Source: Ordospora colligata OC4 (lineage: Eukaryota > Microsporidia > Ordosporidae). From it: DNA of 59,831 nt. The DNA lies in NCBI RefSeq assembly GCF_000803265.1, contig NW_014575398.1:1-59831 (forward strand), given 5' to 3'. The notes below the pieces were generated by a model that did not search any database, had not been told where the DNA came from, and worked only from the letters and a program-made list of their open reading frames with translations. This document shows positions 27,460-59,831 of the stretch, in pieces. Position 1 is the stretch's first letter. Every line of letters starts with the position of its first letter. Made by a program: the position numbers and the translations under genes.

Positions 27460-28263
27460 CTAGTTTCTGATTCCATTCTCAAGTACTGTGGCTCTATAGC
27501 TCTCGTAAATCTCGCTTGCAGTGTAGTCTATCAGACCGTTGATGTGTGTGCTAAGTAATAGCTCTCTGAGTGCAGCAACATCACAATGCAGCGCATTGTC
27601 TATGCTTATATCTCCCCACATGCAGCTTTTCATTCTGAGCTCAGGAGTTGCTTTGTTTGTTGATATAGTGAGGAAAGGAATCAGTCTGTTAAGATCATTC
27701 GCTACTGATGGAGTAGGACATAGATCAGGATCGTCCAGATCAAATATTTCAATGTCATAGTACTTCATTTGCTCAACTATCCTCTCCTTCATCTCAGCCC
27801 TTTCAAGAATGCTTAGTCCGTCAGCTTTACTGATCACCGGAATGATATTCACAAGCCCTGAAACCTTTTTCAAAAACACTATGTCTTTATTCTTCAATCC
27901 CGAGGATGTCGATGGAATAAAGTATAGCATACAATGCACCCGTGTGTCCTCATACTTTGGATTCCTTCGGATTTTAGACTCCTCTGCAATGAACATGTCA
28001 AGTTGTGCTTTGATGAAGTCGCATATGGTTTCTTGAAGTCCAGAGTCATTAAGTGTCTCTCCAAATCCCGGCATGTCTATCAAAGTCACTCTTTGAGAGA
28101 CTCCTTCGCAATCAAGGTTCAGCATGTACAAGTCAATCTCTTCCTGCTTCTTTGATGAAATTATCTGCTTTCCAATCAGAGTGTTGAAGAACGACGACTT
28201 TCCAGATCCCCTTTCTCCTACTGCCATCAGTGTGAATCTTCTGTTCTGTTTCTTTACAATCAT
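27460..28263 (-). CDS. Septin GTPase
   Basis: P-loop AVGERGSGKSSFFNTLIG, switch II/G3 LIDMPGFGETLN and G4 region IIPVISKADGLS (AKAD in other septins) followed by the septin unique element near the C-terminus define a septin. Septins assemble filaments at membranes and division sites; in fungi they scaffold cytokinesis. At 267 residues it is the GTPase domain alone, without the C-terminal coiled coil. The polybasic stretch KKQNRR before the P-loop could bind phosphoinositides. No CCC signal is seen close to the ATG. Confidence 0.9.
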   Translation of the reverse strand: MIVKKQNRRFTLMAVGERGSGKSSFFNTLIGKQIISSKKQEEIDLYMLNLDCEGVSQRVTLIDMPGFGETLNDSGLQETICDFIKAQLDMFIAEESKIRRNPKYEDTRVHCMLYFIPSTSSGLKNKDIVFLKKVSGLVNIIPVISKADGLSILERAEMKERIVEQMKYYDIEIFDLDDPDLCPTPSVANDLNRLIPFLTISTNKATPELRMKSCMWGDISIDNALHCDVAALRELLLSTHINGLIDYTASEIYESYRATVLENGIRN

Positions 28264-51960: not shown

Positions 51961-52764
51961 ATGTGTATTGTTGTTATTTTGTATGCAATCGGTGTGTTTT
52001 GTAAGAACTATGCGATTCTATTGAATTCGTCTCGAGGATTTCATAATTACAGGCAGATGGCGAATGTGTATATTTTTGACCATATATTGCGACAAAATGG
52101 ATATGAAGGAGACCAAATTGCGATTATTTCGTATGTGAACCAGATTCAGGACATAAGAAATGTAGATAAGGAGCATGTGCATATTGATAGCGATTTAAAG
52201 ATTCAGTATTCTGATTTTGATGTTACTGATGATGCGCTGAGGGTGATGTTGAATGCGCTTGAAGGCAACCATCCCAAGCTTAAGGATGCTGATGAGTCAT
52301 CGAATGTTCTGATATACATGAATGGGCATGGAAACGAGTCATTCCTGAAGTTTGGGAGCATACACTTTATGACGAAGGATGATTTGATGTGCAGGGTTGT
52401 GAAGTTAGCATCTAGGGTAGGCAAAGTTTTGTTATTGGTTGATACATGTCAGGCAGATGCACTTATAGACAGAGATGTTTTGCCATCGAATGTTTTCGCA
52501 ATTGCCACAAGTAAGATCAAGCAATCGGCAATTTCGACATTTGAGTCTTCTGTGCTTTTTACTAATACCGTGGACAATTTCTCGTATTTTTTCTTTATGA
52601 GGGCACAGAGGGGAATTGGACGAGATGACAAGCTTATTGATGTGTTTAGTGATTTGAGCAAGGAGCCTATACAATCTGAACTTGTATTCAGTAACAATCC
52701 TATGTTTAATTACGGAGATTTTTTTTTCCAGAATTTGATGTTTGAGCTGCTTCCTTTCAAATGA
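51961..52764 (+). CDS. GPI8: GPI transamidase catalytic subunit Gpi8/PIG-K
   Basis: A cysteine protease of clan CD that cleaves the C-terminal peptide and attaches GPI anchors in the ER. A hydrophobic N-terminus (signal peptide ~1-16) leads into NYRQMANVYIFDHILRQNGY. The catalytic His is in LIYMNGHGNESFLKF and the catalytic Cys in LLLVDTCQADALIDR; both contexts match Gpi8 (ILIYMTGHGGNGFLKF, FIIDTCQ). At 267 residues it lacks the C-terminal membrane anchor of yeast Gpi8 (411). CCC lies one base before the ATG. Confidence 0.92.
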   Translation: MCIVVILYAIGVFCKNYAILLNSSRGFHNYRQMANVYIFDHILRQNGYEGDQIAIISYVNQIQDIRNVDKEHVHIDSDLKIQYSDFDVTDDALRVMLNALEGNHPKLKDADESSNVLIYMNGHGNESFLKFGSIHFMTKDDLMCRVVKLASRVGKVLLLVDTCQADALIDRDVLPSNVFAIATSKIKQSAISTFESSVLFTNTVDNFSYFFFMRAQRGIGRDDKLIDVFSDLSKEPIQSELVFSNNPMFNYGDFFFQNLMFELLPFK

Positions 52765-55810: not shown

Positions 55811-56935
55811 TTAGGCTGGTGGATAGAAACATCCAAAAAGAAGTGCATAGATAATCCCGAACCCAAAGAAGAACCTGAACAGCAGTCTCCGTAGGAATTT
55901 GTTCTGGATTGTGTTGTACTTTTCAGCCAGTATCCAGTAGATCAGCGGATTGAATGAAATGAACCTAAAGTACATATTCCAATGAATTAGAAACACAGCA
56001 ATCAGAGTCTGTGCAAATAATATAATGGCCATTAGGCGAGTATTACGTTTATGTAAACTGTTCTTCTGAAGCCCGACGACGGTTTTGTTGGCATCTAGTC
56101 TGCCATTCCAATACTCAACGAGTATGTATATTGAAATTGCCAAGAATGGAATTCCAAGAATGATGTTTGGAATGTTGTTGCTGGTAAAGAACTTGAACAG
56201 TCCCTGATCCCAATACATTTTTTGGACATATGAATACGGTACAAATATTCTATATGTATTTTTTGCGTTGTTAATAATTAGAAGCGAGTAATACTGGAAT
56301 GCAGCTAACGGAAGCAGAAAGAACGCGGTTCTCATTATAGAAAACACATTCAAGGGAAATAGTACAAATGGAGCAAATAAAACTGCATTTGACCTACACA
56401 ATCCACACAATGAAAGCATCACTGTTCCATGTAACGAGCTGTTTTCTTCCAGGAAGTATATTCCAAGAAGAAAGGCCAGCATAAATAATGACTCTGAATA
56501 CATTGCTGTATATACGATTGATGCAGGATTGAATATAAACAAAACAGCACTAATTTTTGCAATAGTTGGACCGTATCGTTTGAGTGTTATTTTGTATAGA
56601 ATACCTGAGCTCGAAATTGTTGCTAAGCAGGAAACGAGCACACCTGTGGTGTATGGCTCTATTCTCAATATTTTATTAACTGTGCGCGATACATAAGGAA
56701 GGAAAGGAAAGAATGCAGTTTCGTGTATCTTTGCATATCCATTTTTCATTATTTCAAGGAAGTGGACAGCGTCCCATGATAGCAAAAACTTCATGCAAGA
56801 GTTTGTTTGAACAAGTGCCGTGGACTTATCGAAGGGAGGAATCAAAATGGATGCGATGCATGAAATCGATATGTAAAACACACGAGAAAGACAAGCTAAC
56901 CTTAGCACGTCTTTCAGGTCCTTGGCAATAAACAT
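55811..56935 (-). CDS. GPI18: GPI mannosyltransferase 2 (PIG-V/Gpi18)
   Basis: Adds the second mannose to the GPI precursor in the ER lumen. Family marks: FLLSWDAVHFLEIMKNGY (SRWDAxYFLxIAxxGY, with the catalytic-loop Asp), HETAFFPFLPYVSR (ExxxAFFPLFP), LFIFNPASIVYTAMYSESLFMLAFLLGIYFLEE (LFxLNPASIFxSAxYSESLFAxxxFxGLYxLE) and GLCRSNAVLFA (RSNG). About eight to nine membrane helices. The ATG at 56935 has CCC 8 bases upstream, so the ATG nine codons earlier is not favoured. Confidence 0.87.
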   Translation of the reverse strand: MFIAKDLKDVLRLACLSRVFYISISCIASILIPPFDKSTALVQTNSCMKFLLSWDAVHFLEIMKNGYAKIHETAFFPFLPYVSRTVNKILRIEPYTTGVLVSCLATISSSGILYKITLKRYGPTIAKISAVLFIFNPASIVYTAMYSESLFMLAFLLGIYFLEENSSLHGTVMLSLCGLCRSNAVLFAPFVLFPLNVFSIMRTAFFLLPLAAFQYYSLLIINNAKNTYRIFVPYSYVQKMYWDQGLFKFFTSNNIPNIILGIPFLAISIYILVEYWNGRLDANKTVVGLQKNSLHKRNTRLMAIILFAQTLIAVFLIHWNMYFRFISFNPLIYWILAEKYNTIQNKFLRRLLFRFFFGFGIIYALLFGCFYPPA

Positions 56936-57002
56936 TCCTATAAGGGCAGTGTTAATTATCATTTGTTTATTTGCAGGTAAATTTTAGGATGCAGCAGCCC
57001 CA

Positions 57003-57818
57003 ATGTTTGCGTTTGTTCTTTTTACCTTGAGATGCTTGTGCACAGAGCATTTATTTATGCAAGAGTCATCGTTGCTAACGCCTTATGTTGATGGAGTGGG
57101 TAGTTTTGCGAATTGGAATGCGTTTGGTGAGTCTGTAGTTAAGATAAATGGTAAGAGCACGTTTATTCAGCTTGGATTTTCATCACCAGATAGTTCTGGA
57201 GCAATAGTGTCTTCTCAGCCAATAAAGCAAGATAGGTTCTGCATTGATTTTGTTATAGAGATTGCGAATCAAGAGAATAATGGCAATGATGGAGAGGAGG
57301 GAATGTCCATTTGGATGTCTGGAGAGAGTACATTTGAGGAGGGTGCTTGTTATGGTCGGTCATGCAATTTTAATGGGATTCTTGTTGCAATCAAGCCATC
57401 TGGTAAATCTTATATTGGTGTAAAGGCCGGAGATGTGCATGCAAACACACAGAATGCCGACAGATCATTTGATAAGGTGGTTTACAGAGATTTTGTACCT
57501 GGTGATGTTTTTATTGTGCGTATTGAGCAGGACGATCAGCTTACGGTTTACATAGGAGAGTCAAATAATCTTGTGCCAGTGCATGGCTATAAGGCACTTG
57601 CTAGTAAAAAAGACAATTTTATTGGCGTTTCTGCATATACAGGCAAATACCCTTCATCCATGAGAATTATTGGGATTGAATCATATAAGCTCAAGAATTT
57701 CAAACGCCTTGTACGAGATGAGTCTCAAAGAGGAGGTAGTCTTGTGTGGATTCTTTTCTTCATAGTGATAGGTGTAACGGGATATTATCTTTACTCGATA
57801 CAAATTAAAAAGAAGTAA
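57003..57818 (+). CDS. L-type lectin cargo receptor (ERGIC-53/VIP36/Emp47-like)
   Basis: Signal peptide (~1-13), an L-type lectin beta-sandwich (~20-225), then a membrane segment at 247-266 with a cytosolic tail IKKK. Seen in the lectin: SLLTPYVDGVGSFANWNAFG, GAIVSSQPIKQDRFCIDFVIEI, DGEEGMSIWMSGES, and CYGRSCNFNGILVAIKPSG (FxGLxVxxDT in relatives), with a Cys pair in the loop. These receptors carry glycoproteins between ER and Golgi. The terminal KKK could serve COPI retrieval. Microsporidia have little N-glycosylation, so its ligand is unclear. CCCC lies one base before the ATG. Confidence 0.82.
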   Translation: MFAFVLFTLRCLCTEHLFMQESSLLTPYVDGVGSFANWNAFGESVVKINGKSTFIQLGFSSPDSSGAIVSSQPIKQDRFCIDFVIEIANQENNGNDGEEGMSIWMSGESTFEEGACYGRSCNFNGILVAIKPSGKSYIGVKAGDVHANTQNADRSFDKVVYRDFVPGDVFIVRIEQDDQLTVYIGESNNLVPVHGYKALASKKDNFIGVSAYTGKYPSSMRIIGIESYKLKNFKRLVRDESQRGGSLVWILFFIVIGVTGYYLYSIQIKKK

Positions 57819-58185
57819 ATTTGTGTTGTATCATGTTGTATGAATGTACAGTTTATGTTATTATCGTATGGTTTGACTTTCAATAGTCTTCAGTCTCATC
57901 GATAGTTGAATAAAAATTGAACATTTCTTTATTATTATTTGTTTATTTATGAGATCGTTGCATTTATTGATCAGATATAACGAATTTACGAACAATGCAT
58001 TTAAATAAAGCGATATAAATATAACAATATATCAGCCACATATTATAGAATATATGTAATAATAAATAAACGGATATTAGCCAATCATTGTTGACAACGA
58101 TATAATAGCTATCAAGAAAAAAATATATACCGTATACAATGCATAATTGATTTATAAAATGTATTAATAAATAGCCCCATTGAAA
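57819..58185. other. AT-rich spacer before the terminal gene
   Basis: 367 bases, strikingly AT-rich. Contains TATA-rich runs and an inverted repeat around ATCATTGTTGACAACGAT (58085-58102). The final CCCC (58175-58178) stands 7 bases before the next ATG. No coding frame, tRNA or tandem repeat recognised. Confidence 0.6.
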
Positions 58186-59831
58186 ATGAATAATGAGGAA
58201 AAATTCTATACTACGTCTAAGGATAATAAAACATTATCATTAGATATTGACAAGGCTCTTAATGAAGGAAAGATTAAAAAATATGAGTATGGAGATAAAA
58301 ATGAGAAAGATTTATTTGAGGTTTACTTAAACGGAACATTTGAAGATTACGAAGCAATTAAAAAGTCAAATGGAGACAAGACAATACTGTTAATGGGTGC
58401 AAGAAGCATGCAGAAGGATTCTTTGGTAAACTTTTTTATTAATCGCTTATATGATATCAGAATAAACTCTTCTAAACAATATGAAATACCATTAAGAAAC
58501 TCGTCAACTAGTAGATTAATGATAAAAGAAAATAAAATAGTTTCTTATGTGTATATTTCAAATGATAAAAAAACAGCAACCAGAATTATTGACATGCCAA
58601 ATTATCTACCAAAAACAACAGGCTTTCCAATAGGCTATGATCCTAACTATAATGCTATGAACAATACTCAAAATTTTCTTATAAGTGAGCATGTGAATAA
58701 AGTTCATCTCATTTGCTTTGTAGCATCATGCCTATACTTAAAAGAAAAAGAACTGAATCCTAAAATAAGTGAAATGGTTTATAACTTCGATGATGACATA
58801 AAAAACAATATGTTCATGATATTTATGTCTACTAGCAGTATTGGACCAAAAGAATCAGAAGAGTTATCGGATAAATATAAAAAATACATGCCATTCATTA
58901 ATAGTACTGAAAAAGTGCATAAAATTAGCAGTTCAATTTTAAATAGGCAGTCAGATAGAAGTAATGAGAAACAAGTAGTAGAGGCAGAATCTCTTACTAG
59001 TAATTTTATAAACAAGCTGAATAGTATAGAACCTATATCGCTTTCCAAAACAAAAATGCATGCTGAAAAAATAAAAGAATATACAAAAGATTATAGAGAT
59101 AAATCAGGGGAATTTAATTACCAAATTGAAATTTGCTTGAATAAAAAATTATATCATAACAAAAATATTAAAGAAGATATCGAAAGGATCAGAATGAAAG
59201 AGGGGAAAGAATTAGACGAAGTAGTTAAAAGAAAGCCAGATAACTGCCCTTTGCTTGTAGAAAATACAAATGATTATTTAAAAAGATTATTAATTGCATG
59301 CAAAGACAAGCCTCGTGAATTAAGAATTTTAGAAGATGATATTATTCCGGTTTTTGAGGATAAAAATAATCAATTACAAGATATACCGATCAATCCACAT
59401 GAATTTTTAAATCCAATTGTATCTTTTGATAATCAACAAATTCTGAAATTTTTACAAAGTCTTTATCAATCAATTTGGAAATTATATGAAAAAGAAAGAA
59501 ATGAGAGAATACAAGACGTAAACAATCTAATTAATAATTTATCTATACTTTTTGAAAACCAATCGAAAGTTGTTGACCAAGCTAATGCAATTAGAACACT
59601 ATCTACTGAAAATGAAAAACAAATAAATGAAAATGAAAAACAAATAAATGAAATTAAAAAACAAATATTATCAGAAATACAGAACGCAGATGCCAATAAA
59701 TCACAAGTCTTGCTGGTGGATTTAGTTGGGTATTTAGTGTGTGTAATAATGCTATTTATTGGAGTTGGATATGTAGTAGGAGTAGATGTGAGTAAGATTT
59801 ATAGATTAAAGTTGTGTGTGTTTAATTTCAT
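58186..59831 (+). CDS. Degenerate G-domain membrane protein, 3' end beyond window
   Basis: An uninterrupted frame of 548 codons from an ATG with CCCC 7 bases upstream to the window edge. Residues 66-82 (TILLMGARSMQKDSLVN) look like a decayed P-loop that keeps the first Gly and the Lys. IIDMPNY (~134-140) sits where IDTPGxG (G3) belongs. VHLICFVASCLYL…NFDDDIKNNMFMIFMSTSS parallels the ICFVVxxxxxRLT…LFGKDIxxNIxxxxTFAD pattern of AIG1/TRAFAC-type GTPases, without the G4 Asp. A helical, partly coiled region follows (~290-500, ending in a repeated ENEKQIN). A membrane segment lies at ~507-533. Much more AT-rich than its neighbours. Confidence 0.75.
   Translation, partial: MNNEEKFYTTSKDNKTLSLDIDKALNEGKIKKYEYGDKNEKDLFEVYLNGTFEDYEAIKKSNGDKTILLMGARSMQKDSLVNFFINRLYDIRINSSKQYEIPLRNSSTSRLMIKENKIVSYVYISNDKKTATRIIDMPNYLPKTTGFPIGYDPNYNAMNNTQNFLISEHVNKVHLICFVASCLYLKEKELNPKISEMVYNFDDDIKNNMFMIFMSTSSIGPKESEELSDKYKKYMPFINSTEKVHKISSSILNRQSDRSNEKQVVEAESLTSNFINKLNSIEPISLSKTKMHAEKIKEYTKDYRDKSGEFNYQIEICLNKKLYHNKNIKEDIERIRMKEGKELDEVVKRKPDNCPLLVENTNDYLKRLLIACKDKPRELRILEDDIIPVFEDKNNQLQDIPINPHEFLNPIVSFDNQQILKFLQSLYQSIWKLYEKERNERIQDVNNLINNLSILFENQSKVVDQANAIRTLSTENEKQINENEKQINEIKKQILSEIQNADANKSQVLLVDLVGYLVCVIMLFIGVGYVVGVDVSKIYRLKLCVFNF

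Follow-up and report, generated by a model that had tools for sequence, protein, structure and literature searches.

Introduction

GTPases of the GIMAP/AIG1 and Toc34/Toc33 type dimerise through the nucleotide face of their G domains and carry a single membrane anchor. Pombert 2015 is said to have described a 'septin trans-membrane protein' of Ordospora colligata as acquired from Daphnia, an account known here only at second hand. Septins likewise pair through the nucleotide face, and some have degenerated to pseudoGTPases with compensating changes at the interface (PMC10731463; statements taken from this and the other papers cited by PMC number refer to the extracts available of each). The chromosome ends of another microsporidian, Encephalitozoon cuniculi, carry the membrane-protein gene families interC and interD, and interD segments are linked there to other open reading frames (ORFs) (PMC4704409). 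O. colligata itself, a parasite of Daphnia, gained a septin trans-membrane protein with a possible role in entering the host by endocytosis (PMC4626037), and its genome has host-derived regions on chromosomes 2, 5 and 8 (PMC9997559). Here we analyse a 59,831-bp contig of O. colligata OC4 (NW_014575398.1; hereafter the window), at whose end lies an ORF that appears to join a degenerate G domain of this superfamily to the beginning of a membrane tail.

Like the GIMAP/AIG1 and Toc34/Toc33 proteins, the ORF product has a membrane-linked G domain with, in the model predicted from an alignment, the same fold; unlike them, it has lost the nucleotide-binding motifs, and its tail has multiple helices where theirs is one anchor. 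It resembles the pseudoGTPase septins in being a superfamily G domain with conserved pocket residues lost, perhaps kept for an assembly interface (PMC10731463), but it is not a septin by the Pfam model and is joined to a membrane tail. With interC and interD it shares the character of a membrane-protein gene at what is probably a chromosome end, with several helices, which are C-terminal in interC; however, DUF1686 is not reported in the tails described below, and the E. cuniculi ends are GC-rich whereas this end is AT-rich (PMC4704409).

Results

A diverged G domain in the head of a contig-end ORF

The genome consists of 13 contigs (2,279,121 bp; our labels C1-C13 may not equal chromosome numbers), and the window is contig C10 in its entirety. 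A long-read O. colligata assembly of 3.18 Mb has also been reported (PMC12449221). The ORF, 548 codons at 58186-59829 on the plus strand and open at its 3′ end where the contig stops, was picked out by a first-pass annotation of the sequence. At the base composition of the ORF, 548 open codons have a chance probability of ~1e-24, so the frame is not a product of chance; the other five frames contain 19 to 87 stops.

When residues 1-305 were searched against the genome (E≤10), they matched themselves and one other place, C8:66023-66721 (minus strand), with an E value of 2.4e-10 and 25% over residues 63-293. BLASTP of the ORF against the C8 gene product gave 24% identity (E 4e-12). A profile built from 118 relatives (P0010-P0127, without O. 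colligata), the named ones of which are from animals while many others are unnamed metagenome proteins, scores the ORF at 42.6 bits (E 9.7e-13 in the test set), compared with 7.8 bits for the best of 200 shuffled sequences and 7.7 for the best of 500. Among the 123 other window ORFs of at least 100 amino acids, win118 alone passes the inclusion threshold of this profile, at 22.8 bits; we take it to be the septin gene at window 27472-28239. Profiles of narrower composition also find the ORF: one of 13 vertebrate, coral and crab proteins gives 31.7 bits and one of Daphnia proteins alone 21.5, the best of 500 shuffles (the control for all alternative profiles and for phmmer) reaching 7.3 and 7.8, respectively. 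Single proteins compared by phmmer with residues 1-330 score 22.7 bits for P0035 (shuffles 6.2), 23.1 for P0054 (4.6), 26.8 for P0092 (7.5) and 16.0 for the fish protein P0049 (13.2). Homology to the AIG1/GIMAP type was thus significant in four of six profile builds and with four of four single relatives.

Searches with the whole ORF were less informative. PDB sequences returned two chance-level rows (E 0.66 and 9.8). In a set of 5.8 billion proteins the ORF found itself alone at E≤10 among the 7,996 best word-sharing candidates scored; because scoring was confined to these candidates and the same search missed P0008, the C8 gene product, though present in that set, this negative is a weak one. 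The protein cluster to which the ORF belongs, P0001, has four member sequences.

Structure prediction from an alignment gives the head a predicted G fold. Septins appear in the VIA list for this model and not among the 50 Foldseek matches listed, while GIMAPs are among the Foldseek matches and not in VIA; mitofusin is in the fold list as well, and together with EF-Tu and EngB it is taken to show a general G fold only. As judged from the sequence comparisons, the homology of residues 64-293 (58375-59064, plus strand) to AIG1/Toc34/septin-type G domains is well supported and its divergence extreme.

The nucleotide-binding motifs are altered while core residues are kept

Conservation was counted over 120 relatives (P0008-P0127, the best 120 of 1,521, two of them from O. 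colligata). At the G1/P-loop (residues 71-79, GARSMQKDS; 58396-58422), Thr73 (118/120) is replaced by Arg, Gly74 (119/120) by Ser, Gly76 (119/120) by Gln and the Ser/Thr at 78 (119/120) by Asp, so that of GxxxxGK[ST] the first Gly and the Lys are retained. The place that we assign to switch I/G2 (residues 113-115; 58522-58530) has IKE for SQT, with Ser113 conserved in 119 relatives and Gln114 and Thr115 in all 120; nearby, Thr119 (117/120) has become Val. At the G3 place (residues 136-139; 58591-58602) DTPG is invariant in the relatives, each position 120/120, and the ORF has DMPN, departing from DxxG through Thr137 to Met and Gly139 to Asn, with a five-residue insertion after residue 140. At the G4 place (residues 214-217; 58825-58836) TFAD is replaced by MSTS: Thr214 (119/120) by Met, Phe215 (119/120) by Ser, Ala216 (115/120) by Thr and the G4 aspartate, Asp217 (119/120), by Ser. 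The first-pass annotation had noted GARSMQKDS, DMPN, a segment FDDDIKNNMFM and the missing G4 aspartate, all of which are as described.

Many other family positions are held. Kept residues, with their number among the 120 relatives, are Gly71 (119), Lys77 (119), Leu80 (118), Asn82 (111), Tyr121 (120), Asp136 (120), Pro138 (120), Gly146 (120), Gly150 (120), Phe178 (116), Val179 (120), Phe201 (120), Asp204 (120), Asn208 (106), Pro221 (119), Lys246 (116) and Ser250 (118). Because G1, G2, G3 and G4 are altered while core residues stay, the head has the sequence pattern of a pseudoGTPase, and the protein would be expected to bind no nucleotide.

An intact paralogue on contig C8

The C8 relative, which the first-pass annotation had missed, as it had the likely host origin, is an intact 794-codon gene (L036:505-2889, minus strand) annotated as 'cell division protein' in O. 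colligata OC4. Its product, P0008, has the motifs GATGSGKS, DTPGFGD and TFAD and exceeds the Pfam AIG1 cut-off (E 1.1e-7). Like the ORF, P0008 has a homologous G domain (24% identical) and a polytopic C-terminal tail, and the two are in the same genome; unlike the ORF, its G1, G3 and G4 are intact, 231 residues precede the G domain, and its tail, T1, has no detected similarity to T2, the tail of the ORF.

Two O. colligata records of the C8 gene, P0008 and P0009, differ at 25 columns (18 substitutions and 7 indel), all of them beyond residue 319 of the 794. The high diversity of host-derived regions has been ascribed to mis-mapped host reads (PMC9997559). Because both records are database protein sequences, some of this variation may be real.

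Origin of the G domain

P0008 is probably the Daphnia-derived 'septin trans-membrane protein'. A tree of 42 rows puts Daphnia and like sequences at the shortest path from C8, which lies outside them, and the nearest row to the ORF is C8. C8 departs from the Daphnia consensus at 130 sites, of which the ORF agrees with C8 at 23 and with Daphnia at 9; when the AT-favoured residues FYMINK are left out, a hand count gives 11 versus 7. A single capture followed by duplication explains the two genes more simply than two separate captures, which are the less likely history. The extracts of PMC4626037, PMC9997559, PMC11237803 and PMC12449221 contain no mention of a second degenerate copy; the founding genome paper was outside this comparison.

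The membrane tail is common to genes with unlike heads

The helix near the end of the ORF that the first-pass annotation had taken for a C-terminal membrane anchor is present at residues 508-526, but instead of ending the protein as an anchor it begins T2, a longer module with several helices. It is the one hydrophobic helix in the ORF, whose last 38-40 residues (from 59710 to 59829) belong to T2 before the contig ends. Within this stretch, 107 bp (59717-59823) are 100% identical to C7:407-513 (minus strand), whereas the last 8 bases of the contig, which come next, are unlike, and a sub-block (59717-59795) is 81% identical to C6:5645-5723. The C7 frame (L005:2-1495, minus strand; 498 amino acids) contains the 107 bp without a mismatch and then continues, with five hydrophobic stretches before it too is cut by its contig end. 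C6 has a complete frame of 549 amino acids (L006:4987-6636, minus strand) that contains T2, with six hydrophobic stretches.

T2 occurs at three of the 26 contig ends scanned, C6, C7 and C10, and a genome-wide search gives the same three places. Each of the three genes has its 3′ end towards the end of its contig, and their DNA diverges at one common point, the joint in the ORF being in frame; C6 and C7 are 81% alike over 513 bp. No relation was detected among the three heads, apart from weak matching between C10 and C6 of the helical stretch beside the tail. The C7 and C6 tails (L005:2-523 and L006:4990-5733, both minus strand) have 46 consecutive identical residues, from VMSLCELL to VLMIIGY, and match less well on either side, a pattern that gene conversion would produce. 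As in microsporidian subtelomeric families, a contig-end gene here shares a multi-helix segment with other contig-end genes.

T1, the tail of the C8 gene, is present at eight further places on contigs 2, 5, 8, 1 and 6. Two are free of stops, a 579-codon frame at C5:167227 and a 756-amino-acid gene near the C1 end; Pfam reports no G domain for the C1 gene. The six copies with stops (one to five each) are at C5:170329-170658, C5:175382-175747, C8:62425-62868, C8:211210-211596, C2:98777-99013 and C6:136705-136875, and four of them are far inside contigs. On the evidence of these alignments, tails are common to unlike heads. No Pfam family, DUF1686 included, exceeds its cut-off in the ORF, in the C6 or C7 gene that has T2, in the C1 gene with T1 or in the C8 tail. 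Comparisons of T1 with T2 (BLASTP of the C6 tail against the C8 tail, E 0.024; the whole C6 gene against the C1 gene, best E 3.0, outside the tails; hhalign, probability 0.4% with two rows each) give no support for relatedness and, with alignments this shallow, do not exclude it.

Helical middle region, start signal and contig-end setting

Between head and tail, residues 404-500 (59395-59685) form a long-helix, coiled-coil-like region, predicted at low to moderate confidence (block predicted local distance difference test, pLDDT, 40-70). It includes the tandem NEKQINE repeat noted in the first-pass annotation, encoded by a 21-bp unit in 2.9 copies (59607-59667, plus strand).

The start signal attributed to the ORF is also in place: CCCC at 58175-58178 (plus strand), 7 nt from the ATG. 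Of the 46 window ORFs of at least 200 amino acids, taken whether or not they are genes, 23 have CCC no more than 25 nt before their first ATG, as against 7.6% of 3,121 ATGs. Because of this excess, the CCC(C) start signal is a genuine local habit in the window and is usable for annotation.

The shift to AT-rich sequence that had been remarked on is pronounced: G+C content is 27.4% in the ORF and 24.3% in the spacer before it (57819-58185), compared with 34.7-41.6% over 1-58000 in 2-kb steps. The spacer adjoins a legume-like lectin gene (Pfam; 57003-57818, plus strand) whose product matches a protein of Ordospora pajunii at 90% identity. Further upstream are a PIG-V-type mannosyltransferase (55811-56962, minus strand) and a peptidase C13 family gene (51961-52764, plus strand), again by Pfam. 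The septin gene of the window, on the minus strand, matches PF00735 with E 2.9e-63; the genome has two other places that match septins strongly.

Reading on into the next contig, a further check that had been suggested, is ruled out by the assembly: the window is a whole contig and none follows it. The location of the ORF is probably subtelomeric, contig ends being presumed here to be subtelomeres, in line with the setting that had been suggested. At the two ends of C3 (L009:75-8732 and L020:1298-9955), 8,658 bp are 100% identical and run in the same direction. Such a direct terminal repeat is unusual in a linear chromosome and may be an overlap left by assembly.

Discussion

The homology of the head, the loss of its motifs, the sharing of its tail and the intact paralogue can be read from the sequences themselves. 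To account for them we propose, as a reasonably probable explanation, that the ORF is a subtelomeric chimera in which a host-derived G domain, once duplicated, ceased to bind nucleotide and became fused to a membrane tail. The head (residues ~40-310) would be a fast-evolving paralogue of the C8 AIG1-type GTPase, whose most likely source is a host resembling Daphnia; having lost G1, G2, G3 and G4 and kept core residues of the fold, the head would be a pseudoGTPase. The middle of the protein would be long-helical, and the tail would be a module of probably ~6 membrane helices, as the six in the complete C6 gene suggest, shared by recombination with other contig-end genes. The G domain would face the cytosol at a membrane of the parasite, and the protein could act as a scaffold or regulator that pairs through its G-domain face with another G domain of this group. 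Because relatives in the superfamily, Toc34 and GIMAP among them, pair through the nucleotide face, and because pseudoGTPase septins are known, we think that it would be a membrane-tethered G-domain partner, with the C8 GTPase as the first candidate.

The first-pass annotation had already proposed a membrane-linked G-domain scaffold with altered motifs, and the separation of the ORF (42.6 bits) from shuffled sequences (7.7) by a profile of non-Ordospora relatives agrees with it. Two of the checks named there, profile search and structure prediction, came out favourably in part, and their failures are among the observations that count against our explanation. The profile of all 117 relatives with a recognisable P-loop separates the ORF weakly (10.7 bits versus 3.1), a profile lengthened to span -60 to +420 relative to the P-loop gives -8.8 bits, not separated from shuffles, and a profile without entropy weighting gives 2.3 bits, below the best shuffle at 3.3. 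In the whole ORF, Pfam has no AIG1 or Septin match at E≤10; the AIG1 model (PF04548) reports C8 and C10:28045 only in a genome scan, and the septin model (PF00735) four places, the ORF being absent from both. Prediction from the single sequence is uninformative and shows no G fold (pLDDT 33), the fold depending on aligned relatives, and EF-Tu and EngB stand nearly as high in the VIA list as Toc proteins. In the tree, the ORF has a branch of ~10, and its placement next to C8 (support 81/84) is not firm. Finally, the 3′ end of the ORF falls outside the assembly.

The pseudo-G domain could instead be a decoy, shown to the host cell to titrate Daphnia AIG1-type GTPases of the source family, which we regard as unlikely. 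Relatives are present in Daphnia (P0035, P0054, P0092, P0111, P0117 and P0122, by their given names), AIG1/GIMAP proteins have been linked to parasite control or virulence elsewhere, as far as the extracts go, and the differences between P0008 and P0009, all after residue 319, might fit an arms race. However, no signal peptide is apparent by eye at the N-terminus of either gene, and a polytopic tail without one usually leaves the N-terminus in the parasite cytosol, as proposed for E. cuniculi interC (PMC4704409); for these reasons the decoy is the less likely role. Equally speculative is a broader mix-and-match at chromosome ends, in which a GTPase domain captured from the Daphnia host would have been duplicated, deprived of nucleotide binding and exchanged between membrane tails, the resulting pseudoGTPase interfering with host AIG1-type GTPases or controlling the intact captured one.

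That the ORF is a relic, a decaying duplicate open by luck in which motif loss is simple relaxation, is unlikely. The long branch, the low G+C content, the six of eight further T1 copies broken by stops and the whole-ORF search that found no other relative, weak negative though it is, would all suit decay, but the 548 open codons, the start signal, the core residues kept while motifs were lost and the tail joined in frame are at odds with it. Still less probable is a head derived from a native, septin-like microsporidian G domain unrelated to the captured one: the genome holds three ordinary septins and a branch of this length has no firm place in the tree, but the ORF is not among the matches of the septin model, its best match in the genome is the AIG1-type C8 gene, and it shares residues with C8 more often than with Daphnia where these differ, if by a narrower margin once FYMINK are left out. 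An assembly chimera at the tail joint, to which the 107 bp of perfect identity with another contig end followed by 8 unlike bases and the near-identical blocks that several other contig ends share among themselves could point, is likewise improbable, given that C6 and C7 part at the same point and that the joint is in frame.

The 2.3-Mb Ordospora genome is among the smallest known in eukaryotes, yet what is probably a host gene seems to be present in it twice, the second copy lacking the nucleotide-binding motifs and attached to a membrane tail that recombines. If the ORF is expressed, a captured gene would have been split into an enzyme and a pseudoenzyme, and the function of microsporidian subtelomeric membrane proteins would become testable, with the intact C8 GTPase as a concrete candidate partner.
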